DNA from: Chitinophaga pinensis
GTDB taxonomy: Bacteria > Bacteroidota > Bacteroidia > Flavobacteriales_D > Crocinitomicaceae
NCBI GenBank assembly: GCA_945902745.1
Contig: CAMDNE010000020.1
Coordinates: forward strand, 1-50,295
DNA: 50,295 nucleotides
Direction of reading: 5' to 3'
Under the pieces are notes generated by a model. That model saw only the letters and a list, made by a program, of their open reading frames with translations. It was not told where the DNA came from and made no database searches. Within the stretch, counting starts at the first letter, position 1; each line of letters starts with the position of its first letter. A program made the translations under genes and the position numbers. This document shows, piece after piece, positions 13,455 through 45,498 of this stretch.

Positions 13455-13497
13455 TGATATAAATCATATTTATAAATTCGAAAGTGTAGTAGTTTTG
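13455..13497 (+). promoter_or_regulatory. FNR-type operator and -7 box upstream of 13532
   Basis: Operator TGATATAAATCA at 13455-13466 and -7 box TAGTTTTG at 13490-13497 (full match to TAnnTTTG). The centres are 33 bp apart, placing the operator at about -40.5. This predicts oxygen-limited activation of the gene at 13532. Confidence 0.7.
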
Positions 13498-13531
13498 TGA
13501 TAATCAATGGGTCAATCAAATCTATAAGAAA

Positions 13532-13987
13532 ATGAAAATTTTAGAAAATCATACATTAGAAAGCAGTGAATTTGTAGAGGAAACTTTTGCTTTTTGGTAT
13601 ACAGATGACAATCATATACGATCTCCTTTTCCTGATTATATTCAAGCACGTTTAAAAATTGACGCAACTGAGAAATTCTATACTTGGGTAAATAATTTGA
13701 AGCCAGAAGCAAAAGACGAAATGAATGACGAGATTATTGCAGAAAAATTTGAGGAAATTATTTTTGAAGCTGCTCTGCCATTGATCTCCACTGAAGACGA
13801 ACGGATTTCTATACTTTACCCTTTTTTACCAAGAGTTGGCGATGAATTGGCTGATGAAGAAAAAAAAGCAAGTATTATTGCTGATCGAATTATTAAAAAA
13901 GATGAAGACACAAATTTCCTACATTTAACTTGTATTAATAAGGAAACAGGAGAAAAATGGGAAACATCTTTTGAACTACCAGCTTAA
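13532..13987 (+). CDS. Hypothetical cytoplasmic protein, FNR-type promoter
   Basis: 151 residues, strongly acidic, no signal peptide or membrane segment. The protein shows MKILENHTLESSEFVEETFAF at the start and a helical middle with AKDEMNDEIIAEKFEEIIFEAAL. I recognise no family. Its promoter has a perfect operator/-7 arrangement of the regulon seen across this window, so it probably belongs to the anaerobic/nitrate response. It is followed by its own terminator and stands alone as a transcription unit between the DUF1800 gene (divergent) and the persulfide reductase gene. Confidence 0.7.
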   Translation: MKILENHTLESSEFVEETFAFWYTDDNHIRSPFPDYIQARLKIDATEKFYTWVNNLKPEAKDEMNDEIIAEKFEEIIFEAALPLISTEDERISILYPFLPRVGDELADEEKKASIIADRIIKKDEDTNFLHLTCINKETGEKWETSFELPA

Positions 13988-14011
13988 AATTAACATTTTC
14001 CGTGTTATTTT

Positions 14012-14036
14012 AAAACCTGCCTTTTCGGTAGGTTTT
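14012..14036 (+). terminator. Intrinsic terminator after the 13532 gene
   Basis: AAAACCTGCC pairs with GGTAGGTTTT (one G-T pair) over a short TTTTC loop, followed by more T. It begins 25 bp after the stop codon. Confidence 0.8.
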
Positions 14037-14076
14037 TTTGTGATAAAAACAAAAAGCAAAAGGAATCAACTCTTTG

Positions 14077-14121
14077 TGTGATATAAATCACATTTTGTTT
14101 TTAAATGACCCTTTATCTTTG
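14077..14121 (+). promoter_or_regulatory. FNR/CRP-type operator and -7 box of the persulfide reductase gene
   Basis: Operator TGTGATATAAATCACA at 14077-14092 (16-bp imperfect palindrome; core TGATATAAATCA at 14079-14090), -7 box TATCTTTG at 14114-14121. Centre-to-centre distance is 33 bp. The predicted transcription start near 14124 rules out translation from any start upstream of the ATG at 14134. Confidence 0.75.
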
Positions 14122-14133
14122 AAACAAAAGTCA

Positions 14134-15813: not shown

Positions 15814-15866
15814 TTTATTCTTTTCAGATTAACAGATGATTTAACAGAGTTTATTTAAAGACTTAT

Positions 15867-15884
15867 ATCCCGCAGAAAACGCGG
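15867..15884. repeat. Fragment related to the 34364/34725 hairpin repeat
   Basis: ATCCCGCAGAAAACGCGG here closely matches ATCCCGCAGAAAACGCTG in the duplicated region near 34759-34776. The neighbouring GCAGATG also recalls CGCGGATG there. It appears to be one arm of the same dispersed repeat. Confidence 0.5.
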
Positions 15885-15910
15885 AAAATCGCAGATGTGT
15901 TAAATAAGTA

Positions 15911-16054: not shown

Positions 16055-16882
16055 TTAACTTTTCTTCAAAGAATAAACTATTTCTTTCACTTTTTCTGCC
16101 CATTCTAAATGCGTTAATGACTTTGTGAAAGTGGTATATGGAATTGGTTCGCCGACACTTATTTTGATCGTTTTTCCTTTTTGTTTGTACACCTCATCTA
16201 CAAGGAAGAACATTTCAAGGTTAACTTTAATTCCAATTCTTTTGCGGAAGGACCCTAAATTATAAAAAAATCGGCTGTTTTTTGCTTCGATATATACAGG
16301 AATTACATTGTGTTTGTATTGAATAGCTTTTGAAATAAAACTTTTTTTCCATTCCAAATCCTTTATTTCCCCTTTTTGTTTTCTAGAAACTAAACCCGCT
16401 GGAAAAACAATGATGCATTCTTCTGAAGCATAGGTTCTATCCAATAATTTTACATTATTGATTGCATTTTTTCCATGCTTATTAATTGGGATCAATAAAC
16501 TCGTTAGGTTGTGTAAATTCATCAATAAATCGTTCACTAACGCCTTTATATCCTTTCTGCGTTTTGCAACTTCTTGCATGACAGCAATACCATCAATACC
16601 ACCTAATGGATGATTGCAAACAACAATACAGCCTCCTTCTTTCGGAATGTTCTCAAGTCCTTGGCTTATTACATTAATTTGAAAATGCTTCAGAGTCCCG
16701 CAAACAAAATCATGGTTATGAAGATCTTTTGTTTCTCTTAAAAAAGAATTAAAATCTGTTTGATGAATTACTCTTTTTATATAATTTAAAACTACTCGAG
16801 GCAAAAGCTTTAGAAGCCGAGGATTTTTATTCCGTATAACTTCATCTAAATCTATTTGATGGATTTTATCTTTTGTGTTCAT
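16055..16882 (-). CDS. PlsC-like phospholipid/glycerol acyltransferase
   Basis: 275 residues. The acyltransferase motif is VVCNHPLGGIDGIAV (the H-x4-D variant, NHPLGGID, residues ~87-94), followed by LLIPINKHGKNA and a GLVSRKQKGEIKDLEWKKSF segment of the kind seen in hemolysin-like or ornithine-lipid acyltransferases. No strong membrane helix. The substrate is uncertain: lysophosphatidate, or an aminolipid, are both possible. It has its own FNR-type operator/-7 promoter, so membrane-lipid adjustment under oxygen limitation is inferred. The C-terminal end lies close to the gene debris at 15911-15979. Confidence 0.8.
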   Translation of the reverse strand: MNTKDKIHQIDLDEVIRNKNPRLLKLLPRVVLNYIKRVIHQTDFNSFLRETKDLHNHDFVCGTLKHFQINVISQGLENIPKEGGCIVVCNHPLGGIDGIAVMQEVAKRRKDIKALVNDLLMNLHNLTSLLIPINKHGKNAINNVKLLDRTYASEECIIVFPAGLVSRKQKGEIKDLEWKKSFISKAIQYKHNVIPVYIEAKNSRFFYNLGSFRKRIGIKVNLEMFFLVDEVYKQKGKTIKISVGEPIPYTTFTKSLTHLEWAEKVKEIVYSLKKS

Positions 16883-16902: not shown

Positions 16903-16945
16903 CAAAAATAGTTGGCCCCCACGAAATTTTCTATGATTTAAATCA
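16903..16945 (-). promoter_or_regulatory. FNR-type operator and -7 box of the acyltransferase gene
   Basis: Operator TGATTTAAATCA (perfect palindrome) at 16934-16945 and minus-strand -7 box TATTTTTG at 16903-16910, centres 33 bp apart. Confidence 0.75.
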
Positions 16946-21224: not shown

Positions 21225-21252
21225 ACCGTTATGTAAATTAAAATATATCGAT

Positions 21253-21295
21253 CAAAAGTAACGAAACATCTCCCTTATTTCTATGATTTAAATCA
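21253..21295 (-). promoter_or_regulatory. FNR-type operator and -7 box of the modE-mobA-moaD operon
   Basis: Operator TGATTTAAATCA at 21284-21295 (perfect palindrome), minus-strand -7 box TACTTTTG at 21253-21260, centres 33 bp apart. Confidence 0.78.
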
Positions 21296-22498: not shown

Positions 22499-22557
22499 CA
22501 AATTTGATAAAGACCCTCACTTAATCATATGATTTACATCATAAATAACTATATTTG
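22499..22557. promoter_or_regulatory. Shared operator between moeA and the fnr-type gene
   Basis: Operator TGATTTACATCA at 22530-22541. Towards moeA (minus) the -7 box is CAAATTTG at 22499-22506, one mismatch from TAnnTTTG, centres 33 bp apart: activator position. Towards the fnr gene (plus) the -7 box is TATATTTG at 22550-22557, only 18 bp away, so the operator would cover the space between -18 and -31: repressor position. Confidence 0.65.
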
Positions 22558-22589: not shown

Positions 22590-23300
22590 ATGAAAAAAAA
22601 TACGATTGAAATACCTTCTTGCAGTAATTGTGGAAATTCAAAAGAATTCTTTTGTAATTTATCTGAAAGCGAAAAACAATTGTTGAGTGATAAAAAGGGA
22701 GACAATTTCTATAAAAAAGGGCAAGTTATTTTTTACGAAGGCAATCATGCAAATGGATTGTATTGTTTGTATGATGGAAAAGTGAAGCTCACCAAATTAG
22801 GGAAAGACGGAAAAGAACAAATTGTACGTTTTTCAAAAAACGGAGATATTTTGGGATATCGTTCTTTGTTAAGTGATGAGCCATATCATGCGACAGCGAC
22901 AGCTTTAGAAGATTCGCATATTTGTATGATTTCAAAGGAGAAATTTCTTCAAGTTGTAGAACAAAACACAAAATTATCCTTGCAAGTTATCCAATTACTT
23001 TCGAAAGATTTAAAAGGAGCAGAGCAACATTTAATTGATGTAGCTCAAAAAACTGTAAAGGAAAGAATTGCGGAATCTCTTATTTTACTAAAAAACACAT
23101 TTGGATATCTTGCTGATGGTAAAACAATCAATATAAACATGACTCGTTCTGAAATTGCCGATATGGCTGGCACATCTACAGAATCAACCATTCGTACCTT
23201 GGCAACTTTGAGTGATGAAAACATGATTGCATTAGATGGAAAAAATATCATTATTTCAGATTTGCCAAATTTAATTCGTTGTTCCAACACATACGATTAA
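22590..23300 (+). CDS. FNR-type oxygen-sensing transcription regulator (Crp/Fnr family)
   Basis: 236 residues. An N-terminal cysteine set C11-x2-C14-x7-C22 (PSCSNCGNSKEFFCNL) precedes the cyclic-nucleotide-like domain, as in FNR proteins with an oxygen-labile [4Fe-4S] cluster; the fourth ligand could be the Cys in SHICMISKE. The effector domain contains VIFYEGNHANGLYCLYDGKVKL. The helix-turn-helix is MTRSEIADMAGTSTESTIRTL, with Glu and Arg four apart, as in CRP/FNR proteins reading TGA half sites. Best candidate to bind the TGATnnnnATCA operators; its own promoter overlaps one. Confidence 0.9.
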   Translation: MKKNTIEIPSCSNCGNSKEFFCNLSESEKQLLSDKKGDNFYKKGQVIFYEGNHANGLYCLYDGKVKLTKLGKDGKEQIVRFSKNGDILGYRSLLSDEPYHATATALEDSHICMISKEKFLQVVEQNTKLSLQVIQLLSKDLKGAEQHLIDVAQKTVKERIAESLILLKNTFGYLADGKTININMTRSEIADMAGTSTESTIRTLATLSDENMIALDGKNIIISDLPNLIRCSNTYD

Positions 23301-23331
23301 TACAAAATATCCATTTCGTCAATTCTTCTAA

Positions 23332-23374
23332 TGATTTGAATCATATTATTTAGTATTTGACTTTCATAGTTTTA
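23332..23374 (+). promoter_or_regulatory. FNR-type operator and -7 box of the second Crp/Fnr gene
   Basis: Operator TGATTTGAATCA at 23332-23343 and TAGTTTTA at 23367-23374 (one mismatch from TAnnTTTG), centres 33 bp apart. Confidence 0.65.
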
Positions 23375-23398
23375 CATCAATCGATTTTGTAAAGAACT

Positions 23399-24028
23399 AT
23401 GGACAAGGATAATCAAAGATTTAATTTACAATTCATCAAGGATTCGTTCAGTGGTGAAGAAATAAATTTATCCTCTGGCGATATTTTATTTAATGAAGGT
23501 GAAAAAAATGATTTTGTTTTTTTTATAGAATCTGGTTCTATAAAGGTTTTGAAGAACAAATGGGTCATTGGCATAACTAAAGCTTTTGAATTTGTTGGAA
23601 TAACCTCGTGCATCAATGAAATTGACATTTACACTTTTTCATCTAAAGCAATTGAAGATTCTAAATTGCTAAAAATTAAAAAAATCGCTTTCAAAAATTT
23701 ATTACTTGAAAACAAACATTTTTCTAAACAAATAATTGAAATTTTGTGCGAACGCATTAAATTAACGGACATTCGAACAAGAAGTTATATTGATAATTCA
23801 CCACGGCAGCGAGTTCTTTTTGAGATTTTCAACAATATTACACGGTCAAATAATTCAATAGCAGCATACATCACAAATGAAGATTTATCTGAATTAACGG
23901 GTATTTCAAAAAGAGCTGTGACAAAAATCATAACTGATTTAACCAAAGAAGGACTTCTTGAAAGCAAGGATTTAGGTAGTATCTTAATAAAAGATGAACC
24001 AAAAATTTTAACTGAAATAAAGCCTTAA
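23399..24028 (+). CDS. Crp/Fnr family regulator with atypical recognition helix
   Basis: 209 residues. The effector domain (~15-120) has LFNEGEKNDFVFFIESGSIKV. There are no clustered N-terminal cysteines, so it is not an Fe-S FNR. The helix-turn-helix EDLSELTGISKRAVTKIITDL lacks the Glu-x3-Arg pair seen in the other two regulators here, so it probably reads different DNA. Its promoter carries the FNR-type operator at the activating distance, suggesting a cascade under the Fe-S regulator. Its stop overlaps the stop of the convergent third regulator by 4 bp. Ligand unknown; NO-heme or a redox signal are open possibilities. Confidence 0.85.
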   Translation: MDKDNQRFNLQFIKDSFSGEEINLSSGDILFNEGEKNDFVFFIESGSIKVLKNKWVIGITKAFEFVGITSCINEIDIYTFSSKAIEDSKLLKIKKIAFKNLLLENKHFSKQIIEILCERIKLTDIRTRSYIDNSPRQRVLFEIFNNITRSNNSIAAYITNEDLSELTGISKRAVTKIITDLTKEGLLESKDLGSILIKDEPKILTEIKP

Positions 24029-24687
24029 TTTAATTCGCCTTCTTTTATCGATTTCAATTTTTCTATATCGCAAAGATGAATGAATTTACCTTCAATTTTA
24101 ATTACTTTTTCAGTATTCAATTCGGCTAACGTTCGAACTAACGTTTCATATCGCACGCCCGCTTGACTCGCTAAATCAGTTCGAGAAAGTGTAAAACTCA
24201 ATTTTGTTTCACTTCCTTTTGCAAAACCGAATACTTCATAGTTATTATACAGCACTGATGCCACCATATTTCGAACTGGTAATTGACTTGCTAAGCGTTC
24301 TGATTCTCTCAATTCTTCTGCAAAAAAGATCATCATAGCATATGCAAAGGATGAATTAGCAATTACAGCTTCGTTGAATATTTTTAAGGGAATAAAAATA
24401 AGATCAGTATTCTCTAGCGCAATTGCAGAAACAGAATATTTCCAAGAACCACCAAACCCTCTATGACCAATTATGTCTCCATCTGCGGCCAATCGAATAA
24501 TCCGTTCAGTATCATTCCCGTTTTTTGTAGTGATTTTTACTTTTCCAGCATGAATTATGTGGAGTCCTTCAATGGCTTGTCCAGTTTCAAAAATAAAATC
24601 CCCTTTTTTAACCTGGACTATTTTGCTGTGGAATTCGATATATTCATTCCACCCATCTGAACAATAATTTTGTATAATAGAATTCAT
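24025..24687 (-). CDS. Crp/Fnr family regulator
   Basis: 220 residues. The effector domain shows FIFETGQAIEGLHIIHAGKVKI and RLAADGDIIGHRGFGG. Only one Cys near the N-terminus (NYCSDGW), so an FNR-type cluster is unlikely. The helix-turn-helix LSRTDLASQAGVRYETLVRTL has the Glu-x3-Arg pair, so it could bind the same TGAT half sites as the Fe-S regulator and compete or cooperate. It follows moaA on the minus strand by 18 bp and is probably the last gene of the hemerythrin-moaA operon. Confidence 0.85.
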   Translation of the reverse strand: MNSIIQNYCSDGWNEYIEFHSKIVQVKKGDFIFETGQAIEGLHIIHAGKVKITTKNGNDTERIIRLAADGDIIGHRGFGGSWKYSVSAIALENTDLIFIPLKIFNEAVIANSSFAYAMMIFFAEELRESERLASQLPVRNMVASVLYNNYEVFGFAKGSETKLSFTLSRTDLASQAGVRYETLVRTLAELNTEKVIKIEGKFIHLCDIEKLKSIKEGELN

Positions 24688-26410: not shown

Positions 26411-26440
26411 TTTCGCTAAAATTACCGTTATGTTTTTATG

Positions 26441-26484
26441 TAAATATCGGTAGAGAATACAAAACTATTTATGATTTAAATCAT
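26441..26484 (-). promoter_or_regulatory. FNR-type operator of the hemerythrin-moaA operon
   Basis: Perfect palindrome TGATTTAAATCA at 26473-26484. The best -7 candidate is minus-strand GATATTTA at 26441-26448, two mismatches from consensus and 34 bp away, so this is the least regular case among the single-operator promoters. Confidence 0.6.
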
Positions 26485-31377: not shown

Positions 31378-31420
31378 CAAATCTACTAAGCACTTTATGC
31401 GTATAAAATGACGTAAATCA
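31378..31420 (-). promoter_or_regulatory. FNR-type operator and -7 box of the narK operon
   Basis: Operator TGACGTAAATCA at 31409-31420 (one half site imperfect), minus-strand -7 box TAGATTTG at 31378-31385, centres 33 bp apart. Confidence 0.72.
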
Positions 31421-31646: not shown

Positions 31647-32030
31647 TTACATTCCTACGTTCACTTCTTTGTGTTTATCCATAATCATGATATAAACGTG
31701 ATCTGGAGAAATTTCTTCAATGTTGATACCAAAGGTCATCGCATTGGTGCGTTGCATTTGCACTAATTCCAAATGATTTTTGTCGTGTAAGGTAAATATC
31801 ATGAAATGTTTGTCGCCAATTTGATCCAAAATTTTCACCATGATTTCCATGTTTGTATCAGCAATATCTGTTCGATTTGCATCAAAATTTGAAACAAGTG
31901 TTTTGTAATCTTTTTCAAAAATTTCTTGTATAACGCCATTCCCATTGAAAAAAGCGTCCATGTTTTCCACATCCCAAATTTGAAAATCCTTGTATTGAAC
32001 GGCATTTTCATTAAACTGTTGAACTATCAT
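31647..32030 (-). CDS. Hypothetical protein of the nitrate/anaerobic regulon
   Basis: 127 residues from the ATG at 32030 (MIVQQFNENAVQY). A longer frame to 32066 would begin upstream of the predicted transcription start near 32042, so I reject it. No signal peptide or membrane segment. Features: YKDFQIWDVENMDAFFNG, MEIMVKILDQIGDKHFMIFTL and a C-terminal MIMDKHKEVNVGM. I recognise no family. It is transcribed divergently from the 61-residue membrane protein at 32137, sharing a single FNR-type operator, and ends in a strong terminator. Likely linked to nitrate respiration by regulation only. Confidence 0.72.
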   Translation of the reverse strand: MIVQQFNENAVQYKDFQIWDVENMDAFFNGNGVIQEIFEKDYKTLVSNFDANRTDIADTNMEIMVKILDQIGDKHFMIFTLHDKNHLELVQMQRTNAMTFGINIEEISPDHVYIMIMDKHKEVNVGM

Positions 32031-32044
32031 AATTTGATTTTTTT

Positions 32045-32118
32045 CAAAGATATAGTTTAAAGTCACCTCAATAAATGATTTATATCACATTTTTTCAAAG
32101 CTGTTTTTTATACTATTG
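32045..32118. promoter_or_regulatory. Symmetric divergent promoters with one FNR-type operator
   Basis: Operator TGATTTATATCA at 32076-32087. Minus-strand -7 box TATCTTTG at 32045-32052 and plus-strand -7 box TACTATTG (one mismatch) at 32111-32118 both lie exactly 33 bp from the operator centre, so one bound dimer could activate both directions. Confidence 0.75.
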
Positions 32119-33160: not shown

Positions 33161-34183
33161 TCATCTTCCCCATTCGTATTTTGACGCAAATTTTATATTG
33201 AATCCAACAACCAGAATTATTAATGCAACAATTTGATGTAAAACTCCAAAATTTACTGGAACAGATAAGATTAAGGTTGTAATTCCAATTGCAACTTGAA
33301 TGAAAATGAGAGATCCAAATAACCTTGTTTTACTTCTAATTGAAAAATGATACTCTTTGCTTTTTATTAAAATGTATGTCGCTAAGAAAAAGCAACTAAT
33401 TCCCAAAATTCGATGAATCAATTGGACAACAGATGGTGATTCAAAAAGTGCTAACATTCCTTTTTCTTGAAAAGAATAAGTCAAATCTGATGGGAACCAA
33501 GAATCACCCATTTTAGGGAAAGTATTATACATTTTACCTGCTTTTAGACCTGCTACAAAAGCACCATATATAATTTGTAGAATCAATAAAATGAGAGTGC
33601 TATTTATTAAAGGTTCATTAAGCAAAGGAATAGTTCTTTTCTTTTCTCCATGTTTCACCCAAAGGGCGGTTTTATAGATGTAAATTATAAGAATTAATGC
33701 TGCCATAAGGTGTGCCGCTAGTCTATAATGGCTCACATGAGGGTTTTTTACTAAACCACTTTTCACCATCAACCACCCCAAGACACCTTGACAGATTCCT
33801 CCGAGTAAAATTAGAAGTACCCTTTTTTTCAATTCTTTCGAAAATCTTCCTTTCAACCAAAAAATTAAACATGGTATGATGAAAACAAGCCCTATTACTC
33901 TACCAACTAGTCGATGCAAATATTCCCAAAAGAATATCGATTTAAATTCTTTGAGCGTAAAATGATTATTGTAAACTTTAAATTCAGGAGATTTTTTGTA
34001 CAAATTGAATTCCTTTACCCAAGCTTCTTCATTCAAGGGAGGAATCGCTCCAACAATTGGTTTCCATTCTACCATCGATAAACCTGACTGGGTAAGACGT
34101 GTGGTTCCGCCAATTACAACCATTAATGCAATCAACAAACAACCAGACAATAGCCAATAATAGATAGATTTCTCTTTATTCAT
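33161..34183 (-). CDS. ctaA: Heme A synthase (COX15/CtaA)
   Basis: 340 residues, eight predicted membrane helices. It oxidises heme O to heme A for aa3-type oxidases. Family features: GGTTRLTQSGLSMVEWKPI, FFWEYLHRLVGRVIGLVF (conserved His pair), HVSHYRLAAHLMAALILI, a second half with VVQLIHRILGISCFFLATYI and VLHQIVALIILVVGF. It is the long COX15-type form with the ~40-residue loop PPLNEEAWVKEFNLYKKSPE. Its first 21 codons and upstream region are copied in tandem just upstream. Confidence 0.94.
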   Translation of the reverse strand: MNKEKSIYYWLLSGCLLIALMVVIGGTTRLTQSGLSMVEWKPIVGAIPPLNEEAWVKEFNLYKKSPEFKVYNNHFTLKEFKSIFFWEYLHRLVGRVIGLVFIIPCLIFWLKGRFSKELKKRVLLILLGGICQGVLGWLMVKSGLVKNPHVSHYRLAAHLMAALILIIYIYKTALWVKHGEKKRTIPLLNEPLINSTLILLILQIIYGAFVAGLKAGKMYNTFPKMGDSWFPSDLTYSFQEKGMLALFESPSVVQLIHRILGISCFFLATYILIKSKEYHFSIRSKTRLFGSLIFIQVAIGITTLILSVPVNFGVLHQIVALIILVVGFNIKFASKYEWGR

Positions 34184-34460
34184 TTTTCTTTAAATTAAAA
34201 TCGAGTTCGCAAAATTGGTAAAGAAAAATAGAACAAAGCATGATGCTTGTCATTTCAAGATTATTTAATTGACTAGTCTCAAATTTATCACACCGGCACA
34301 GGCAGCCACGAAGTGGAAACGGATTGAATGAAATAACAGTTATTATTCCTTTATTATTCGTCTGCGTTTTCTGCGGGAAATGTTTTTGACACTTTTTATC
34401 CAGCAGAAAACGCTGAGACACGCGGATGCATTCCTAAAATATTCTGCCCTAATTTACTAT
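34121..34460. repeat. Tandem duplication, unit 1
   Basis: 340 bp that include the first 21 codons of ctaA and ~277 bp upstream. Unit 2 lies at 34482-34821, offset 361 bp, with only scattered substitutions (for example CACACCGGCACAGGC against TACACCGTTACAGGC) and a 21-bp spacer. Both units carry the hairpin GCGTTTTCTGC/GCAGAAAACGC (34364-34374 with 34403-34413). Confidence 0.92.
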
Positions 34461-34544
34461 AAAACTGAGTTCGATTATAATCATTAATGCAATCAACAAA
34501 CAACCAGACAGCAGCCAATAATAGATAGATTTCTCTTTATTCAT
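34449..34544 (-). pseudogene. Truncated second copy of the ctaA 5' end (31 codons)
   Basis: ATG at 34542-34544 starts the same 21 codons as ctaA, including two synonymous changes (CTA TTG to CTG CTG), then runs ten unrelated codons (IIIELSFIVN) to a TAG at 34449-34451. The product would be a single hydrophobic helix. Probably a dead fragment, though its upstream region is intact and it could be translated as a small membrane peptide. Confidence 0.7.
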
Positions 34545-34821
34545 TTTTCTTTAAATTAAAATCGAGTTCGCAAAATTGGTAAAGAAAAATAGAACAAAGC
34601 ATGATGCTTGTCATTTCAAGATTATTTTATTGACTAGTCTCAAATTTATTACACCGTTACAGGCAGCCACGCAGTGAAAACGGATTGAATGAAATAACAG
34701 TTATTAATCCTTTATTATTCGTCTGCGTTTTCTGCGGGAAATGTTTTTGACACTTTTTATCCCGCAGAAAACGCTGAGACACGCGGATGTATTTCCAAAA
34801 TATTCTGTCCTAATTTACTAT
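34482..34821. repeat. Tandem duplication, unit 2
   Basis: Second unit of the duplication at 34121-34460. Its hairpin is longer and perfect: GCGTTTTCTGCGGGA at 34725-34739 with TCCCGCAGAAAACGC at 34760-34774. The rest of 34822-34880 shows no gene. Confidence 0.92.
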
Positions 34822-36371: not shown

Positions 36372-37799
36372 TTAATGATTGCGTGATTTTTTACCAAAAT
36401 TGTGACGTGTTGTTGTTCTAATATTTTTTGGATTCCAATTCCAGATAACCACTTGGTATTTTCTCCAGATATAATCAAATGGAGCAACTAAGAAGTGCAT
36501 AAATCGTGTAAATGGTATAACACCAATAATAAGGAATGCTGAGATAATGTGAATTTGAATCCACCACGGCATTGCAGAAACAGCGTCAATATCAGGATTG
36601 AAAGAGAAGACAGATCTTAAGTAAGGAGTTAATGTACTTGAGAACCATGAAGAACCCCATCGCACAAAAAATGCAACTCCTAATCCAGTGATTATTTGAA
36701 CAAACAAAATTGTATAGACTAACATGTCCATTTTATTTGTGACTACTAAAAGCATTTTAGCAGATAATCTCCTTTTGATTAATAATATCAATCCTAACAA
36801 AGCAGATAATCCGAAAGCGAAAGATGAAATTTCAAGAATCAACAAACGAACTGGCTCCCCATTCCAAGCTAAAACAGCTGATGGGAATAAAAATGCCGTT
36901 AAGTGACCAATGAATAGCACTAATAATCCCCAGTGAAATGGTTGACTTCCCCAAAACAACTTCTTTCCTTCTAAAAATTGAGAAGATAAAGAAGAAACTT
37001 GATATCCTCTATTCATGTATCGATAAATACTTCCAACAATGAAAATACCAAAAGCTACATAAGGCAAAACCATGAACATAAGTGTACTCACCATTCCAAC
37101 ATTTTGTTTAAGAACCGTGGCTAATATGAAGATAACTACCACAGCGCATAACAAGAATATCAAAAAGTAAAATCCATAATTTGGAATACTATGTGGTTCT
37201 CCATGGTATCCAACTTGTTCTACTTTCTCATTTGTTCTTTTCTTGAATCTGTATAACATGAATCCAACAATAACAAGTGATAAGAAGACCCAAAAGATGA
37301 AATTATAATTCAAATTAACTCCTACTGCTGGCGCTGGTGTTCCAGGAGCTGCAGCTGTTGCTCCTGCCTCTGCTGGTGCTGCGCCAGGAGCTGCTTCTTT
37401 AGATTTTACAAAAGCCAAAAAACCTTTTATTTCCTCATCTGTTAATTGAGGGAAACCAGGCATTGGTATTTTATTGAAATCTCCAAACAATTTCACTGCA
37501 TCTGCATCTCCAGAAGCAATTAATCCTTGAGAATCTTTCACCCATTTAATTACCCATGCTTCCGTTCTTCTTTCACCGACACCTTGTAAACCAGGCCCCA
37601 TTAGAACTTTATCCGTCAAACTGTGACATGACATACATAATTTGTTGTAAACTTCCTCACCAGTAGCACCAAAACTACTTTTTGAAGAGAATAGGGCACT
37701 TATGAAAAGTACAAAAACCGATACAGTTTTTACTCTTTTCCAAACAGAACTTAACTCTAAGCTGAGTCCCGTTACCTTTGATTTTTCTTGACGAGTCAT
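36372..37799 (-). CDS. narI: NarI-type nitrate reductase gamma subunit fused to an N-terminal cytochrome c domain
   Basis: 475 residues, about twice the usual NarI length. Residues ~1-45 include a signal/anchor helix; ~46-130 are a monoheme cytochrome c with heme site CMSCH and a distal Met candidate in IPMPGFPQLTDEEI. An Ala/Pro-rich linker (APAEAGATAAAPGTPAPA) and a membrane helix follow. Residues ~235-475 are the NarI cytochrome b: heme-binding His in FHWGLLVLFIGHLTAF and in IHIISAFLIIGVIPFTRFMHFL. NarI takes electrons from quinol to NarH. The extra c domain offers a second periplasmic electron path. Last gene of the nar operon. Confidence 0.93.
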   Translation of the reverse strand: MTRQEKSKVTGLSLELSSVWKRVKTVSVFVLFISALFSSKSSFGATGEEVYNKLCMSCHSLTDKVLMGPGLQGVGERRTEAWVIKWVKDSQGLIASGDADAVKLFGDFNKIPMPGFPQLTDEEIKGFLAFVKSKEAAPGAAPAEAGATAAAPGTPAPAVGVNLNYNFIFWVFLSLVIVGFMLYRFKKRTNEKVEQVGYHGEPHSIPNYGFYFLIFLLCAVVVIFILATVLKQNVGMVSTLMFMVLPYVAFGIFIVGSIYRYMNRGYQVSSLSSQFLEGKKLFWGSQPFHWGLLVLFIGHLTAFLFPSAVLAWNGEPVRLLILEISSFAFGLSALLGLILLIKRRLSAKMLLVVTNKMDMLVYTILFVQIITGLGVAFFVRWGSSWFSSTLTPYLRSVFSFNPDIDAVSAMPWWIQIHIISAFLIIGVIPFTRFMHFLVAPFDYIWRKYQVVIWNWNPKNIRTTTRHNFGKKSRNH

Positions 37800-37800
37800 A

Positions 37801-38490
37801 TTAATTAGTTTTTACTGGTTCAGGAGTTGTAGCGCATGAAGTGGTACAACTCTTTAGGAAATTGCCGCCAAGTGTTGGAACAATAACCGGATCATTATAG
37901 TGTGTGTTTTTGAAATCTTCTTTAACAACAAGTGCTAAAGAATTAATAGCAAACTGAAAAATGTTTTTATTTTCCATGTCTTCCATCAAAATCACTTTTT
38001 GCTTTTTCTTACGAACTTTATCTTTTAGTTCCATTCGAGCAGAGTCAAACTCAGCCAACATTTTATCAAGTGCTGGAATCATAACTCTTGCTGCAAATTC
38101 TTCGACAAATTCTTCGTCTTTCAAAAGTGGAAGTAACGTTAGAACATTTGGCAAGTTATCCGCCAGTTCAATTCCACAGTCGTTATTTGCTCTTCGTTGC
38201 TCATCCTTCATTTTGACAAGGAATTCTCCTCTTTTGTAGTCTTCCGCAAACAATACATACCCAAGATCTAAAAAACAAATTGCTTGAATATGAAATGTTT
38301 TACCAAAAGCTTCTTCAATTTCATGCATTGATTTCTCTTCAACATATTGAGCAAAAGGTAGTATTTCGGCATAAGCCTCATCATATTTCCCTTTAAGCAT
38401 TTTTGCACAACTTGCCACATTCTGCTTATACGTTTCATCAGGATACCTGAATAGTTCTGCAAGAATATTATAATGGTCTCTACTTTTCAT
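37801..38490 (-). CDS. narJ: Nitrate reductase assembly chaperone NarJ
   Basis: 229 residues, usual length. NarJ binds apo-NarG and helps insert the molybdenum cofactor and Fe-S cluster. Features: NILAELFRYPDETYKQ at the N-terminus, the helical FGKTFHIQAICFLDLGYVLFAEDYKRGEFL segment typical of the TorD/NarJ fold, and NVLTLLPLLKDEEFVEEFAA. The C-terminal tail is Cys/Thr-rich (KSCTTSCATTPEPV), unlike E. coli NarJ. Position between narH and narI, one base before narI, is canonical. Confidence 0.92.
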   Translation of the reverse strand: MKSRDHYNILAELFRYPDETYKQNVASCAKMLKGKYDEAYAEILPFAQYVEEKSMHEIEEAFGKTFHIQAICFLDLGYVLFAEDYKRGEFLVKMKDEQRRANNDCGIELADNLPNVLTLLPLLKDEEFVEEFAARVMIPALDKMLAEFDSARMELKDKVRKKKQKVILMEDMENKNIFQFAINSLALVVKEDFKNTHYNDPVIVPTLGGNFLKSCTTSCATTPEPVKTN

Positions 38491-38506
38491 GGTTACTCTT
38501 TTTCAA

Positions 38507-40000
38507 TTATAAACCTCTTTTTGGTTTCATTTTGAATCCAAATCCTGTTTCACCTTTAGCATCAGCAGTAGATTCTAACATTTCGATAGACTCTTCTCTG
38601 TGTGCTGGTGGTATTACAAAACGCTCCTCAAAAGTTGCAAGTGAAGTCAATCTAAAGATTGCATCCGCTGTTTCAGGACCTACTTTAGCTTTGGTCATTA
38701 ATCTCTTAACTTCTTCGTCATTTAAGTCACCAACAGTTGCATTTCTTCTATGCATTTTCACACTTAGTAATTTCTCATATACATTTGTGATTACCGCAGT
38801 ATCTCCATTTGAGAATAAAGAAGCAAGGTATTTCATTGGCATACGGTTTTGATCAATACCTGGGAACAATTCTTCTGAAGTTGTTTGATACAATCCTTTT
38901 TCGTCTACTTGTGCCATTGCAGGCAACATTGGTGGAACATAGAAAAGATTAGGTAATGTTCTAAACTCTGGGTGCAATGGCAAAGCAATACCCCACTCTT
39001 TCACAAACTTATAAACTGGTGAATTTTGTGCTGCTTTGATAGTTGAATCATGAACGCCATTTTTACGTGCTTCTGCAATAACCATTGGGTCATTTGGATT
39101 CAAATAAATATCTAAGTGATTGTGCAATAAATCTTTGTCGTCACTTGATGCAACTTGCTCAATACGATCTGCATCATACAGCATTACTCCCAAATAACGG
39201 ATACGTCCAACACAAGAGTGCATACAAGCAGGTGCTTGACCTGATTCTAAACGTGGGTAACAAAGAATACATTTCTCTGATTTCCCAGTATGCCAGTTGT
39301 AATAACTCTTTTTGTAAGGACATGCTGTAACACACATTCTCCAAGCTCTACATCTTTCTTGGTTAATCAAAACCACACCATCTTCACCTCTTTTATAAAG
39401 AGCACCAGATGGACAAGAAGCAACACATGCTGGATTCAAACAGTGATTACAAATTCTTGGTAAGTACATCATTGTCATTTGTTCCAATTGGAACATCGCC
39501 TCTTGATCTGCACTTGTCAAGTCTTTAAAGTTGACATCTTTTCGAGCGTAATCCGGAGAACCTCCTAAATCATCATCCCAGTTTGGCCCTGATTTAATAT
39601 CAATTGGTTCGCCAGTTATCAACGAAACTGCACGACCAATTGGTTGGTCATCTCCTTCAGGAGCAGTGAAAAGATCACTGTATTTATACGACCATGGGTG
39701 GTAGTAATCTTCCAATGATGGCATGTTTGGATTGTGAAAAATATTTTTCAATCCTTTCAATTTACCTGCTCCTTTTAAGGATACAGATTCACCATTTTTC
39801 TCCCAACCACCTTTGTATATGTCTTGATCTTCCCATTTAGTAGGATAACCTGTTCCTGGTTTGGTTTCAACATTGTTCCACCACATATATTCAGCTCCAC
39901 GTCTATCTGTCCAGATGTTCTTACAAGCAACTGAACATGTATGACATCCGATACATTTATCAAGATGAAAAACCATGGATATTTGCGCTCTAATATTCAT
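38507..40000 (-). CDS. narH: Nitrate reductase beta subunit NarH
   Basis: 497 residues. Carries four Fe-S clusters from NarI hemes to NarG. Cysteine groups: CIGCHTCSVACKNIW, RICNHCLNPACVASCPSGALY, CRAWRMCVTACPYKKSYYNW (the Trp in place of Cys marks the [3Fe-4S] cluster, as in all NarH) and KCILCYPRLESGQAPACMHSCVGRIRYLG. The C-terminal part follows the NarH pattern (LPLHPEFRTLPNLFYVPPMLP). It starts 31 bp after narG and precedes narJ by 16 bp. Confidence 0.96.
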   Translation of the reverse strand: MNIRAQISMVFHLDKCIGCHTCSVACKNIWTDRRGAEYMWWNNVETKPGTGYPTKWEDQDIYKGGWEKNGESVSLKGAGKLKGLKNIFHNPNMPSLEDYYHPWSYKYSDLFTAPEGDDQPIGRAVSLITGEPIDIKSGPNWDDDLGGSPDYARKDVNFKDLTSADQEAMFQLEQMTMMYLPRICNHCLNPACVASCPSGALYKRGEDGVVLINQERCRAWRMCVTACPYKKSYYNWHTGKSEKCILCYPRLESGQAPACMHSCVGRIRYLGVMLYDADRIEQVASSDDKDLLHNHLDIYLNPNDPMVIAEARKNGVHDSTIKAAQNSPVYKFVKEWGIALPLHPEFRTLPNLFYVPPMLPAMAQVDEKGLYQTTSEELFPGIDQNRMPMKYLASLFSNGDTAVITNVYEKLLSVKMHRRNATVGDLNDEEVKRLMTKAKVGPETADAIFRLTSLATFEERFVIPPAHREESIEMLESTADAKGETGFGFKMKPKRGL

Positions 40001-40031
40001 AACTATGAATTTTTGTTATTCTAACTAACTA

Positions 40032-43000
40032 TTAATATTCTACTATCTCCATTTTTCTAACCAACACATGTGTGTCACGGTTCACGCCTACAGGACCCCA
40101 ATAATTGAAGTGGTAAGTAAATTGTCCGTATCCACCACACATTAAATTTGGTTTCAAGTGAACTCGAGTAAATGAGTTGTTCATTCCACCTCTTCTTGGT
40201 TCACCTTTTTCACCTCTTCTAATTTGAGATTTAGGAATGTTATATGTTCTTTCAACAGCGTGATAAACTATACAAACACCTTTAGGAATACGTGCACTCA
40301 CACAAGCTCGTGCAACATAAACACCGTGGTCATTGTAAACTTCAACGTGATCATTATCCTTGATCCCAAGTTCAGCTGCATCTGTTTCACTTAACCAACA
40401 TGGCTCGTTACCTCTTGAAAGCGTTAACATTCGAAGCGTATCGCCATAAGTTGAGTGAATATGCCATTTACCGTGAGGAGTTAAACAATTCAACATTTTT
40501 GCTTTACCATCATTCACTGTTTTTCTTAAATCTCCATAAGCTTCAGGAGTAGGTGATGGTTTGTATGTTGAAAGGTGTTCTCCAAAGGCGATATAAGCAT
40601 CATGATCAAGGTAGAAATGTTGCCGTCCAGTCAATGTTCTCCAAGGAACAAACATGTCTATATTATATGTGTATGCGCAATATGTCCTTCCTTCATGCAT
40701 TAAACCTGACCAAAGTGGAGAAGAATTATAACGTTTAGGTTGTGATTGCAAGTCTCTATAATCCATAGATATTTGCTCGTATCCGTCGCCTAGCTTTGCA
40801 ATTTCTTCATTTCCAATAATCTTCGCCATATTTTCATAGGCACGCTTTGTCAATTTTCCGTTTGTTAAAGTCGACAATTTCAAGATTGCATCAATTGCTT
40901 CAACATCCCCTTTTAGTGATGGATATTCTTGCCCATTATCTAATCGAATAACATGCTCTTTATTTTGAATCATCTCTTCGTAAACATCCTCACACATGTA
41001 GTTGTTACCGTGTGCACCAAGTCCATTTTTAGCAACACCATCTCCAAGAGTGATGAATTTATCATAGATCTTTGTATAGTCTCTTTCTTTGAAGACGATT
41101 TTATGCATTGTTTTTCCAGGGATTGGTTCACATTCCCCTTTAGACCAGTCTAACAAATGTGGTTGAGTGATTTCATCCTTTGAATCATGTTGTAATGGAA
41201 CATTCACTACATCCATCACTGGATTTGGTAAATATTTTTTAGACATGTTTTGCACTTTCAATGCCAATTCTTGGAATATTTGCCAGTCTGTTTTAGATTC
41301 CCAAACTGGAGGAATAGCCTCAGAAAGTGGGTGAATAAACGAGTGCATATCCGTTGAATTGATATCCGCTTTTTCATACCATGATGCAGTAGGTAAAACG
41401 ATATCAGAATATAAAGCTGAAGTGTCCATTCTGAAGTTGATGTCAATCACCAAATCCATTTTTCCTTTTGGAGCTTCTTTTCCTTTATACGTGATATCCT
41501 TTACAAATTCTCCTGCAACTTCGTCCGCAATTTTATTTGTGTGCGTTCCTAAATAGTGATCTAAGAAGTACTCATGTCCTTTTGCTGAAGTTCCAATTGC
41601 ATTACCTTTCCAGATAAACCAAACTCTTGGGAAGTTAATTTCCTCATCTGGCTCAACGATAGCATGCTTTAATTCTCCAGATTTCAATTGCTGAACAATA
41701 TAATTACGCATTTCGTCTTCTGTATTCGCGCCAGATTTTTTAGCATCCTCGATAATTGCGAAATTATGCTTGTTGTATTGAGGATAATAAGGCATCCATC
41801 CGTTACGAACTGCCATAACAGCCCAGTCAGCAGAGTGCATGTTTGCCAATTTATTATCAGGAACAGAATTATAGTATTTCTGATTTCCGTCATATCTCCA
41901 TTGACATGAGTTGATATAATGCCAGATAGGTCCTTGTTGTAAACGTGGCGCTGTATCCCAGTCTTTCGAACTCATGATTGTTGACCATGAATCCATAGGA
42001 GCCAATTTCTCTTGCCCAACATAGTGATTCATTCCACCACCGTTTTTACCATTACAACCCGTAAGCATTTGCGCCATAATAGCTGAACGATACATCAAGT
42101 TTTCGTGGAACCAGTGGTTTATTCCTGCTCCAACAATTACCATACAAGCACCTTCAGTTGTTTCAGCTGTACTAGCCCATTCACGTGCCAATTGGATAAC
42201 TTCTTTTCTACCAATTCCAGTAAAAATTTCTTGCCAAGCTGGCGTGTATGCAGCATCTTTATCATCGAAAGAAGTAGGATAATCTCCTGCTAATCCACGT
42301 CCAACGCCATATTGAGCCATTGTAAGGTCATAAATGGTTGCTACAGGAACTTTTTCTCCGTCTTTCGTTGTAATATAACGAACAGGAACTCCTCTGTATG
42401 CTTTTTTATCTAATCCAAATTCAGTAAATTGAACTTGAAGTACATCATCGTGTTTTTCAAGTAAAGACAATTCTGGATCGTATCCTTGTCCTGATTCACC
42501 ATCTGTATAATTAAGATTCCATTGGCCTTTTTTCTCTTGCCATCTGTAACCCATTGTTCCCATTGGAGAAATAAGTCCACCAGTTGTTGCGTCGTAGTTC
42601 AAGAATTTCCATTCGCCATTTTCAGCATCTTTAAATTCAGAAACTTCTCCAATACGCATCATTCTACCAGGCGTTAAAACGTCTCCATTTTTATCCAACT
42701 TCACAAGGAAAGGACAATCTGTAAAACGTTTAATGTAGTCCATGAAATAAGGAACTTGTCTATTTACGTGGTATTCTTGTAGTATTACGTGCGTAACAGA
42801 CATCCAGAATGCACCATCAGAACCGGCGTGAACTGGAATCCATTGATCAGCATGTTTTGCAACCATGTTGAAATCGGGTGCCATTACAACTGTTTTCGTT
42901 CCATTGTGTCTTGCTTCAGAGAAGAAGTGAATATCTGGCGTTCTTGTCATACCAAGGTTTGCACCCATTGATACAATGAACTTTGATTTGAACCAGTCAG

Positions 43001-43676
43001 CAGATTCACATACGTCTGTTTGTTCACCCCAAATTTCTGGGAAAGCATTTGGTAAATCACAATACCAATCATAGAAAGACAAGTTAACTGCTCCCATCAA
43101 TTGTAAGTAACGAGCACCGGATGCGTAGCTCAACATACTTTTTGCTGGAATTGGTGCAAAACCAATGATTCTATCCGATCCATATTTTTGAATCGTATAA
43201 ATGTTTGATGCTGCGATTAATTCAATTACCTCATCCCATTTAACTCTTCTAAATCCACCTTTACCTCTAGCTCGTTGGTATCTTTTTCTTTTAGTAGAAT
43301 CAGCTTGTAAATTTGCCCAAGCTAAAACTGGGTCTCCACCACAATTTTTCTTTTCTTCTCTATAAAGATCGATTAAAGCACCACGAATAATTGGGTATTT
43401 AACACGAATTGGGCTATACAAGTACCATGAATAAGAAATCCCACGTTGACAGCCTCTTGGCTCATATGGTGGAACATCTTTATTAAATTGAGGGTAATCC
43501 AATTGTTGCATTTCCCATACAACGATACCGTCTTTTACGTGAATTGCCCACGAACACCCACCAGTGCAGTTTACACCGTGGGTACTTCTCACTACTTTAT
43601 CATATTGCCATCTATTTCTATAGAATTCTTCCCATTTACGAGTATTTGGCGATATTATATCTTCAATCCAGCTCAT
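40032..43676 (-). CDS. narG: Respiratory nitrate reductase catalytic subunit NarG
   Basis: 1214 residues from the ATG at 43676 ([20 protein letters not shown]); an upstream extension reads as non-coding. Reduces nitrate to nitrite at a bis-MGD molybdenum centre. The FS0 cluster motif is [11 protein letters not shown] (His-x3-Cys-x3-Cys). The expected NarG landmarks follow: [30 protein letters not shown] with the Mo-ligand Asp region, [64 protein letters not shown] and [12 protein letters not shown]. No Tat signal is visible, so the active site should face the cytoplasm as in classic Nar. Needs MobA, MoeA and NarJ, all encoded in the window. Confidence 0.97.
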
Positions 43677-43708
43677 TTTATTTGAATTTAATGTAACTAT
43701 TACTGTTA

Positions 43709-44266
43709 TTAATGTTTGGCATCCCAAGCGCTATGTTGACGGTCAAAAATGTCTTTTTTAACCATTTTTTTCTTTCTATTCATGTACATGAAGTTTATGA
43801 TAATCAACAAACCAGCTAAACCACTTAGTCCTCCAATCAACATTGTTGAATACCCAGTTTTTGCAGTTTGACTTCCTTTCACTTCATTTGCATACTTTAA
43901 GAAAGCAGATAATTTTCCTCTTTCATTTTCAGTTAAAGGGTGATTTTGGTAGGATGCTGCCATTGCAGGAAAAGGTGGAGCAGATAACCATACTGCTATT
44001 CCTTCACCTAATCTTGTGTAGACGTCCGTCAAGTCTTTTGCAAGTAGTCCTCCAGTCATCAATTGATCATTTTTCACATTGTGACATGAAATACAAGCTG
44101 GCCCTCCATTTAAAAAGCTACTTGAGCCTTCAAAATATTTTATTCCTGCACTTTCTTCAGGTTGCATCGCTCTGCTTGAAGCAGCAAAGGTTGACATTGT
44201 CGATAAACTTATTACTGAACCTAGAATAACAAGTTTAATTCCTTTAAGTAATCTTTCTTTTTCCAT
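43709..44266 (-). CDS. Membrane-anchored monoheme cytochrome c, first gene of nar operon
   Basis: 185 residues. Signal peptide ([23 protein letters not shown]), one heme site CISCH (~residues 58-62) in a cytochrome c domain, candidate axial Met in the [10 protein letters not shown] region, then one C-terminal membrane helix ([23 protein letters not shown]) with a basic tail. It precedes narG by 32 bp and is under two FNR-type sites. By position it recalls the cytochrome gene narC of the Thermus nar operon, though that protein is diheme; role as electron partner of the NarI-linked cytochrome c is inferred. Confidence 0.88.
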
Positions 44267-44285
44267 TACATAGATAATTATAGTG

Positions 44286-44328
44286 TAAAATTGATTTTAA
44301 TGCACAGCTTATAAAATGATTTATATCA
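44286..44328 (-). promoter_or_regulatory. Proximal FNR-type operator of the nar operon
   Basis: Operator TGATTTATATCA at 44317-44328. At exactly 33 bp lies CAATTTTA (minus, 44286-44293), a weak -7 box with two mismatches, consistent with a promoter that depends on an activator. Confidence 0.65.
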
Positions 44329-44466
44329 TAAAATTAAAGTCTGATTAAAAATTTTTAATAAATAGAATCCTTCTAAATAAGGATATGTATATACTATTTA
44401 TCTTATTTATCAAGCAATTACAAGAAGAAAGGGGAAGGGAAGTGCATTTATTGAAATAAATCTAAA

Positions 44467-44478
44467 TGATTTAAATCA
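44467..44478 (-). promoter_or_regulatory. Distal FNR-type operator of the nar operon
   Basis: Perfect TGATTTAAATCA, 150 bp upstream of the proximal site (centre to centre), with no -7 box at 33 bp on either side. It lies between the queD stop and the nar promoter. It may be an auxiliary site for a second regulator dimer. Confidence 0.6.
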
Positions 44479-44524
44479 CACTAAATTGAAGATTTACAGC
44501 TGTGTTTAATATTGAAAAGCTGAA

Positions 44525-44992
44525 TTATTGATCAGCTAAAAACCATTCTGCATATGAACTTGGTGTTTCATCCAATCGTGCAGTGATTAATTTAATTTCG
44601 ACCGGTAGTTTTGGAATTACTAAATCAACAAAATGAACTAAGAGATTTTCACATGTTGGTTGAAATGATGTGTAAATAATTCGTTCACTAAAATCAGTTA
44701 ACACAGCATTTTTTGCAATATCCGACATTTCGTTTAAAACAAGTGAATGGTCGAAAACGTCAATTATTTCGGTTTTTACTATTGCTTTGACATCTTTAAA
44801 ATCAATGACGAATCCATTTTTTGAATGACCTTCATCGTTGCGAATCGGACCCAATAATGTTACACTGAAATGATAAGTATGACCATGAATATTTTTACAC
44901 AACCCGTCATAACCATCTAAGGCATGTGCAAAATCCAATGTAAACTTTTTGGTTACACGAATATTAGTAGAATTCGTTTTGGAATTTATCAT
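44525..44992 (-). CDS. queD: 6-carboxytetrahydropterin synthase/PTPS family (QueD-like)
   Basis: 155 residues. Zinc ligands and catalytic residues of the 6-pyruvoyl-tetrahydropterin synthase family are visible: FTLDFAHAL (His), GYDGLCKNIHGHTYHFSV (catalytic Cys, then His-x-His), FVIDFKDVKAIV, DHSLVLNE (Asp-His) and PTCENLLVHFVD followed by ARLDETPSSYAEW (Glu). Normal role is queuosine or pterin precursor synthesis. Unusual context: it starts in a TAATG overlap with a cytochrome c lipoprotein gene under an FNR-type promoter. Exact substrate is uncertain. Confidence 0.88.
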   Translation of the reverse strand: MINSKTNSTNIRVTKKFTLDFAHALDGYDGLCKNIHGHTYHFSVTLLGPIRNDEGHSKNGFVIDFKDVKAIVKTEIIDVFDHSLVLNEMSDIAKNAVLTDFSERIIYTSFQPTCENLLVHFVDLVIPKLPVEIKLITARLDETPSSYAEWFLADQ

Positions 44993-45441
44993 TAATTGTT
45001 TTTGTCATTATTTCTCATAAATTCCAAAATTGCCTTTGCATCATTATCACTCAGGTTTTGATTAGGCATTCTAACTTTGTAAGCAGATATTTGGGCTTTC
45101 AACGTTTTATCTTTATCAAGCATTTCTTCTGAATTCGTTAAGAAATTCAGAATCCATTCAGTAGATCTCCTTTCGGTAATATTTAGCCAGCCAGGACCAG
45201 TAGAAGCTTCAGTGGTCAAGTTGTGACAACAAATACATTTTGAAATAAGTAATTTCTTTCCTTCGGCAATTAACTTTTCATCAAGTGTATCTGATAAAAT
45301 TACATTATCGAATTTCCCTGCTCCAATTTTAGCATTATACGGTTTTTCCACGGATACATTTTCAACTTCTTTTTTACTTGTTGAATTGTTACAAGCAACT
45401 AAAAGAATCAAAGCACCAATAATATATAGCGTGTGTTTCAT
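44992..45441 (-). CDS. Monoheme cytochrome c lipoprotein
   Basis: 149 residues. Signal peptide with lipobox LVAC (MKHTLYIIGALILLVAC), so the protein is membrane-tethered in the periplasm or outer membrane. Heme site CICCH in LLISKCICCHNLTTEASTGPGW, helical stretch ITERRSTEWILNFLTN and candidate axial Met in YKVRMPNQNLSDNDAKAILEFM. The ERRSTEWI segment resembles ERRTEAWVIKW of the cytochrome c domain on NarI, so the two are probably related. It has its own FNR-type promoter and is co-transcribed with the queD-like gene. Confidence 0.88.
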   Translation of the reverse strand: MKHTLYIIGALILLVACNNSTSKKEVENVSVEKPYNAKIGAGKFDNVILSDTLDEKLIAEGKKLLISKCICCHNLTTEASTGPGWLNITERRSTEWILNFLTNSEEMLDKDKTLKAQISAYKVRMPNQNLSDNDAKAILEFMRNNDKNN

Positions 45442-45455
45442 CCTAAATTAATTTT

Positions 45456-45498
45456 CAAAATTCGTGTGTTTACTATTTCTATCCTATGATGCGTGTCA
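45456..45498 (-). promoter_or_regulatory. FNR-type operator and -7 box of the cytochrome c-queD operon
   Basis: Operator TGATGCGTGTCA at 45487-45498 and minus-strand GAATTTTG at 45456-45463 (one mismatch from TAnnTTTG), centres 33 bp apart. Confidence 0.6.

Follow-up and report, generated by a model that had tools for sequence, protein, structure and literature searches.

The contig CAMDNE010000020.1 of assembly GCA_945902745.1, deposited as Chitinophaga pinensis, assigned to the Crocinitomicaceae (Flavobacteriales_D, Bacteroidia), and 50,295 nt long (the window), carries genes for nitrate respiration and for the molybdenum cofactor (Moco), many of them preceded by an FNR-like palindromic operator. 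This raises the question of whether these operators stand at one fixed distance from a promoter box, as an initial annotation had claimed for nine operators and 10 promoters, and what such a distance would mean. In our scan of the window, the operator centre was separated from the centre of a TAnnTTTG box by exactly 33 bp, i.e., by a gap of 23 nt, at all 10 of these promoters, and no box had more than one mismatch. The geometry is real and non-random, and it is common to several families of the class; it represents a known type of mechanism in a new promoter setting and with a variant box. We consider it probable (about 0.8), from the sequences compared here, that these promoters belong to the Bacteroidota housekeeping sigma factor and depend on class II activation, with an FNR-type regulator using them as a low-oxygen switch.

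Spacing in the window and in the source genome

The 11 perfect palindromes of the window (22 strand-sites) were examined at an offset of 33 bp and, as a control, at the 100 others between 10 and 110 bp. A perfect box was found at 33 bp for 5 of the 22 strand-sites, versus a mean of 0.03 at the other offsets (maximum 1), and a box with at most one mismatch for 8 of the 22, versus a mean of 0.30 (maximum 2). When operators with up to one mismatch were included (135 strand-sites), 12 boxes were located at 33 bp, versus a mean of 1.57 elsewhere (maximum 5). Counted by palindrome, seven of the 11 had a box with at most one mismatch at 33 bp, and two more, at 26472 and 44317, had a box with two mismatches; those at 41438, inside narG, and at 44467, upstream of the nar promoter, had no box with two mismatches or fewer at this distance. 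The nar promoter had indeed been described as lying at 33 bp with a weak box. The box of the hemerythrin-moaA promoter (GATATTTA, two mismatches) is weak, as annotated, but its distance is 33 bp and not the proposed 34. Two 33-bp sites, at 34241 and 34602 (TGACAAGCATCA with CAATTTTG), were found in addition, before ctaA and its partial duplicate. At the 13 tabulated promoters (Table 1; ctaA duplicate left out), the inferred transcription start lies approximately 8–30 nt ahead of the start codon, three start codons (14134, 32030, and 32137) having been corrected by eye for this purpose.

The source genome (3.46 Mb, 54 contigs) contains 186 perfect operator sites. A genome-wide operator-to-box scan, which the initial annotation had proposed as a check, returned 12 exact matches over 31 offsets (gaps of 8 to 38 nt), of which seven were at 33 bp, five of these in the window (binomial p = 2.5e-8). 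With one mismatch allowed in total, 29 places showed the 33-bp spacing versus five for a 37-bp control; nine of the 29 and none of the five were located in the window, leaving 20 versus five outside. Nine of these 20 sites (one returned no result) have an ATG-started open reading frame (ORF) of at least 60 aa no more than 30 nt from the box. These include U32-peptidase-like and thioredoxin-like ORFs and, on contig C1, a hemN-like gene facing away from a second FNR-type gene. The names hemN-like, ccoS, thioredoxin-like, and, for the source genome, U32-like were read from the sequence and not from a Pfam line.

Spacing in related islands and in the class

The island was also found in three related metagenome-assembled genomes (MAGs) named Flavobacteriales bacterium, whose copies of the regulator R1 (Table 1) are 100, 80, and 68 per cent identical, and in one more genome (R1 66 per cent identical). 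One genome of the genus, G096, carries a near-identical island on its contig C6 (loci L070 and L071, approximately 97–100% protein identity), yet a search of 24 other genomes of the genus detected a close R1 in just one more (80%), and the nitrate island thus looks recently transferred or often lost.

Promoters of the window were compared with those of loci L065, L066, and L074 wherever the gene was present, the window being included in the counts. The 33-bp spacing was found at R2 (4/4), narK1 (3/3), 31647 (2/2), and nar (2/2, weak box), and in three of the four moeA promoters, the fourth being at 34 bp with a perfect box. In the hemerythrin promoter, GATATTTA at 33 bp was kept in two of three cases, and two of the four modE promoters have a 33-bp site, that of L074 being among those that keep it. 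The site before the 13532 gene is kept in L066, and in L074 precedes a 134-aa ORF directly ahead of the homologue; the minus-strand promoter of the 32076 operator is kept in L065. The persulfide reductase downstream of 14079 has no homologue in L065, L066, or L074. Across orthologous promoters the 23-nt gap remained constant while the spacer sequence diverged, and among 107 of the 110 sites listed at 33 bp, no spacer position from −27 to −13 carried more than 0.26 bit. At the 5' end of hemN beside the core regulator, eight of 14 loci were at 33 bp and one at 34 bp.

Nineteen genomes from the family's other genera gave 150 listed matches, 33 of them at 33 bp, whereas the other 30 offsets had a mean of 3.9 and a maximum of 8; at least one match at 33 bp was present in 14 of the 19 genomes, among the matches listed. 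Complete counts were obtained in class and phylum scans over 11 offsets. The phylum sample comprised 148 genomes, including 34 from the same class but other orders, and in these 34, 86 of 173 matches were at 33 bp, spread over 26 genomes (binomial p = 5.5e-43). In seven class genomes all 61 matches were taken, 38 at 33 bp, 11 at 34 bp, and 12 at other offsets. An ATG-started ORF of at least 50 aa began within 60 nt of the box in 28/38, 9/11, and 2/12 of the cases, respectively, and one of at least 80 aa within 120 nt in 30/38, 8/11, and 3/12.

Pfam was applied to 30 of the 49 ORFs that follow class sites, and three of these had no family. At 33 bp, these ORFs encode cytochrome oxidase subunit I (PF00115, three loci, each preceded by a ccoS-like ORF of 62–66 aa), two radical SAM hemN-like proteins, phosphoenolpyruvate carboxykinase (PEPCK), pyruvate phosphate dikinase (PPDK), a universal stress protein, a U32 peptidase, and MlaE permease, thioredoxin, PAS, and YceI proteins; at 34 bp, a globin, an Rrf2 regulator, a Crp/Fnr protein, a pyridine-nucleotide oxidoreductase, and a CoA-transferase. 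MlaE, fasciclin, and PEPCK are not classical FNR targets. In four class genomes (loci L094, L106, L111, and L119), a ccoS-like ORF of 62–66 aa starts 14–25 nt behind the box and is followed by a ccoN-like gene. The proposal that the geometry defines a nitrate regulon was thus too narrow: elsewhere in the class, the same spacing is found before hemN-like and ccoS-ccoN genes, before those for U32 peptidase and universal stress protein, and before others, which suggests an FNR-type geometry of general use, employed here by the nitrate-respiration and Moco island.

Regulators, mechanism, and competing explanations

Class II activators are positioned at −41.5. In Flavobacterium psychrophilum, the sigma-A promoters have the same TAnnTTTG box, mapped at −12 to −5 (PMC9723704), and with the box so placed an operator 33 bp away would be centred at −41.5, the start sites being inferred from this position. 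The class II layout of the initial annotation is supported, with −41.5 in place of its −40.5 if the box takes that position. As to the proposed replacement of the −33 element by the regulator, TTG was not clearly enriched near −33 even without an operator: of 54 control promoters, five had it at −36 and three at −33, and the operator promoters had it there in 0 of 17 cases. In the proposed mechanism, a dimeric FNR-type Crp/Fnr protein would bind a ATGATnnnnATCAT-like operator centred at about −41.5, touch the RNA polymerase sitting at the TAnnTTTG box, and turn the genes on at low oxygen; in the source genome, the geometry would control the nitrate-respiration and Moco island as well as the hemN-like gene.

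Three different Crp/Fnr genes, R1, R2, and R3, lie adjacent to each other (22590–24687), and all three products match PF00027 (cNMP-binding domain) and PF13545 (HTH_Crp). The overlapping gene order suggests that R3 belongs to one operon with hemerythrin-moaA, and since R2 and the R3 operon both lie behind 33-bp promoters, a regulatory cascade among the three genes is suggested. R1 or its C1 paralogue would be the binder, with R2 (23399) and R3 (24025) as further candidates. R1 scored 93.2 bits against classical FNR (NCBIfam PRK11161), far below the curated cut-off of 228, and is therefore called FNR-type and not FNR. In E. coli FNR, three N-terminal cysteines and a central one ligate a [4Fe-4S] cluster. 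Columns 11, 14, 59, and 112 of R1 are cysteine in 29 of 31 sequences (R1 and 30 relatives), and column 22 in five; the third widely kept cysteine, at 59, occupies a different place from its counterpart in E. coli FNR. Neither R2 nor R3 has the set. It is thus plausible that R1 carries an Fe-S cluster with a third ligand unlike that of E. coli FNR, Cys 11, 14, 59, and 112 being a possible ligand set. The odds of class II activation are unaffected by uncertainty about these cysteines or about −41.5, since the argument is carried by the geometry and not by the cluster.

Classical FNR has the recognition helix E-x-x-S-R and binds the box TTGATnnnnATCAA. The helix was E-x-x-I-R in all 31 sequences, and E-x-x-V-R in R3, which has V in place of S when aligned to an FNR chain. 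At 33 bp, the base following ATCA was T at 71 and A at five of 107 sites, whereas at other offsets it was T at 27 and A at 17 of 72 (Fisher p = 3e-5, T vs. A). The operator is therefore ATGATnnnnATCAT-like rather than the classical TTGATnnnnATCAA, in agreement with the E-x-x-I-R helix.

Several observations weigh against class II activation by an FNR-type regulator. Outside the window, only two of six exact matches in the source genome were at 33 bp (p = 0.014), and no ORF was detected behind one of these two, on contig C8. The source genome's own ccoN has no operator with a 33-bp box within 700 nt and was rejected as a target, the TGAY/RTCA operator pattern used in this check having been picked after sites had been seen. 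No peak was found in the other classes of the phylum sample (14/118 at 33 bp, 10.7 expected, p = 0.18), and a phylum-wide rule was rejected. A smaller peak at 34 bp (22 of the 149 matches listed) indicates that the spacing is not absolute, and five of the 14 hemN loci were at neither 33 nor 34 bp. R1 itself has operators but no 33-bp box (five sites in four genomes, 3–5 box mismatches). Finally, no such site was seen ahead of modE in L065 or L066, or ahead of ctaA in L065, and L066 does not retain the DUF2490-side promoter.

Of the competing explanations, the one that fares best, although we regard it as rather unlikely, is that the binder is not R1 but a DNR-type sensor of nitrogen oxides (R3 or another paralogue without a cluster), so that the island would respond to nitric oxide or nitrite and not to oxygen. 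R3, with its E-x-x-V-R helix, is in line with hemerythrin-moaA, and DNR recognizes an FNR-like box (PMC1274295); however, core FNR-type genes with the conserved cysteines adjoin hemN, with the same geometry, in genus genomes in which no close R1 was found. A repressor function of the operators, alone or alongside activation, with the fixed distance reflecting overlap with the −33 region, appears improbable: one-base precision is unneeded for a repressor site, and several boxes (moeA, nar, hemerythrin, and cytochrome c) are weak, as those of activator-dependent promoters would be, even if the absence of a 33-bp box towards R1 is compatible with another role of the operator there. Descent of all the promoters from one ancestral cassette, with a spacing that is inherited and not functional, can be illustrated by one true copy, a 115-bp exact repeat in which a ctaA-type promoter occurs twice; yet the spacers share little sequence and orthologous promoters hold the gap while the spacer diverges, which largely refutes this very improbable origin and led us to reject it. 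Chance was rejected as practically negligible, even though TAnnTTTG and TGATnnnnATCA are both frequent in AT-rich DNA, since the offset controls in the window, the genome, and the class sample, with the binomial values given above, bear out the view that such constancy is hardly accidental.

An activator-dependent, FNR-type promoter class would have several known counterparts. It would share with the class II FNR and CRP promoters of E. coli an activator near −41.5, anaerobic genes, and Moco genes among the targets, but these have a −10 TATAAT instead of the sigma-A box TAnnTTTG, and the E. coli FNR operator is flanked as in TTGAT...ATCAA, whereas the flanks here are A/T. Cur/BT4338 of Bacteroides thetaiotaomicron is likewise an activator of the Crp family, and activation of fusA2 requires its site, located upstream of a putative −7 box; the site itself is different (22-bp wwwTATGTTnTAnAACATAwww), and so is its signal, carbon limitation (PMC6989115). 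The strict Cur/BT4338 pattern had no match in the 148 genomes, which is uninformative. HcpR, DNR, and NnrR are FNR-like regulators of nitrogen-oxide genes, and the TGAC half-sites at 31409, 34241, and 45487 are similar to the HcpR site TTGACnnnnGTCAA, whose outer bases are nevertheless different; HcpR2 in Bacteroides uses a GTAACnnnnGTTAC site, and its regulon consists of hcp alone in most Bacteroides (PMC1274295). A meta-regulon study placed a Crp/Fnr homologue of a Flavobacteriales MAG near MalR (PMC8510549). The words crp and fnr are absent from the main text of PMC9723704, and the portions of the open-licence PubMed Central literature consulted described neither an FNR regulon nor an operator-to-box rule in Flavobacteriales.

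The Bacteroidota promoter is distinct, and spacing mutants would directly test how an activator works with this sigma factor. A geometry precise to one base allows targets to be proposed in uncultured genomes, and, if the reading is true, the low-oxygen regulon of uncultured class members would be predictable, so that anaerobic gene control in a little-studied group may become readable from sequence. It would also link genes 13532 and 31647 and the 61-aa ORF at 32137, whose functions are unknown, to low-oxygen control.

ModE-like sites and other features of the window

The ModE box, in the form found before E. coli modA, is a 24-bp sequence, CGnTAT...ATAACG. The pattern CGHTAT-N12-ATAACG has two sites in the 3.46 Mb, both on Moco promoters of the window, and a reversed-pattern control gave 1 and 1. 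Approximately two sites are expected genome-wide by a rough estimate from base composition; as the count itself is near expectation, the case rests on the place of the two sites, both within 1.5 per cent of the genome and on operator-linked Moco promoters, and on the box being found again in L074, ahead of modE, and in L066, downstream of an operator. The hemerythrin promoters of L065 and L066 carry a related, imperfect sequence. The ModE-like protein (117 aa) matches PDB 2ijl and 1b9m by sequence over the N-terminal domain alone, and has no molybdate-binding C-terminal domain. It probably adds a second control at modE-mobA-moaD and hemerythrin-moaA by covering the start or the box, and the overlap with a ModE box may explain the poor look of the hemerythrin-moaA box. 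In the E. coli moa operon, FNR works at one promoter and ModE at another (PMC2408646), whereas both kinds of site are predicted on one promoter here.

We lean slightly towards a joint reading, a cis-regulatory code of one Bacteroidota class combined with a ModE two-input gate. With ATGATnnnnATCAT as their target, FNR-type proteins that have the E-x-x-I-R helix and an unusual set of conserved cysteines (11, 14, 59, and 112) would activate TAnnTTTG promoters when centred at −41.5, and would also tolerate −42.5. Nitrate respirers would add a short ModE lacking the molybdate domain, which would overlay the same promoters and form the gate at a single start site.

Table 1. Operators, promoter boxes, and regulator genes of the window. 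Boxes lie at 33 bp unless stated.
Feature	Position	Strand	Details
Operator TGATATAAATCA	13455–13466	+	Box 13490–13497 TAGTTTTG; gene of unknown function at 13532
Operator	14079–14090	+	Box 14114–14121 TATCTTTG; CoA-disulfide/persulfide reductase with rhodanese domain
Operator	16934–16945	−	Box 16903–16910 TATTTTTG; acyltransferase 16055–16882
ModE-like protein, DNA-binding domain only, 117 aa	20871–21224	−	TIGR00637, 81 bits (cut-off 98.5)
ModE-like box CGATATATTTTAATTTACATAACG	21227–21250	−	About −2 to +22 of inferred modE start; equivalent at L074:8592–8615
Operator	21284–21295	−	Box 21253–21260 TACTTTTG; modE-mobA-moaD promoter
Operator	22530–22541	−	Box 22499–22506 CAAATTTG towards moeA; also upstream of R1, no 33-bp box there
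R1, FNR-type Crp/Fnr regulator	22590–23300	+	Cys 11, 14, 22, 59, 112; recognition helix TESTIR
Operator	23332–23343	+	Box 23367–23374 TAGTTTTA; regulator R2
R2, Crp/Fnr protein without N-terminal Cys	23399–24028	+	Helix KRAVTK
R3, Crp/Fnr protein without Cys set of R1	24025–24687	−	Helix YETLVR
ModE-like box CGATATTTACATAAAAACATAACG	26426–26449	−	Spans weak box and inferred start of hemerythrin-moaA (about −13 to +11)
Operator	26472–26483	−	Weak box 26441–26448 GATATTTA; putative hemerythrin-moaA-R3 promoter
Operator TGATTTACGTCA (1 mismatch)	31409–31420	−	Box 31378–31385 TAGATTTG; narK1-narK2
Single operator, two divergent boxes	32076–32087	both	See next two lines
32076, minus side	Box 32045–32052	−	TATCTTTG; gene 31647–32030
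32076, plus side	Box 32111–32118	+	TACTATTG; 61-aa ORF at 32137
Operator-like TGACAAGCATCA	34241–34252	−	Box 34210–34217 CAATTTTG; ctaA; repeated at 34602–34613
Operator	44317–44328	−	Weak box 44286–44293 CAATTTTA; cytochrome c-narGHJI operon (genes 36372–44266)
Second perfect operator	44467–44478	−	No 33-bp box; upstream of nar promoter
Operator TGACACGCATCA (1 mismatch)	45487–45498	−	Box 45456–45463 GAATTTTG (1 mismatch); cytochrome c-queD

The start of the persulfide reductase is probably 14134 rather than 14074. Within 8000–50295, no Moco riboswitch was matched by Rfam at the gathering score, and a search of the whole source genome returned no NrfA-type nitrite reductase (PF02335). The genes 13532–13987 and 31647–32030, both under 33-bp promoters, have no Pfam or NCBIfam match, and homologues are present in related islands. 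Through the 115-bp exact direct repeat (34152–34266 and 34513–34627), the ctaA promoter with its operator TGACAAGCATCA is present twice, and so is the 5' end of ctaA. In the nar operon, a CxxCH protein (43709–44266) precedes narG, and NarI (36372–37799) is a fusion in which the nitrate reductase gamma domain is preceded by an N-terminal cytochrome c domain that has one CxxCH.

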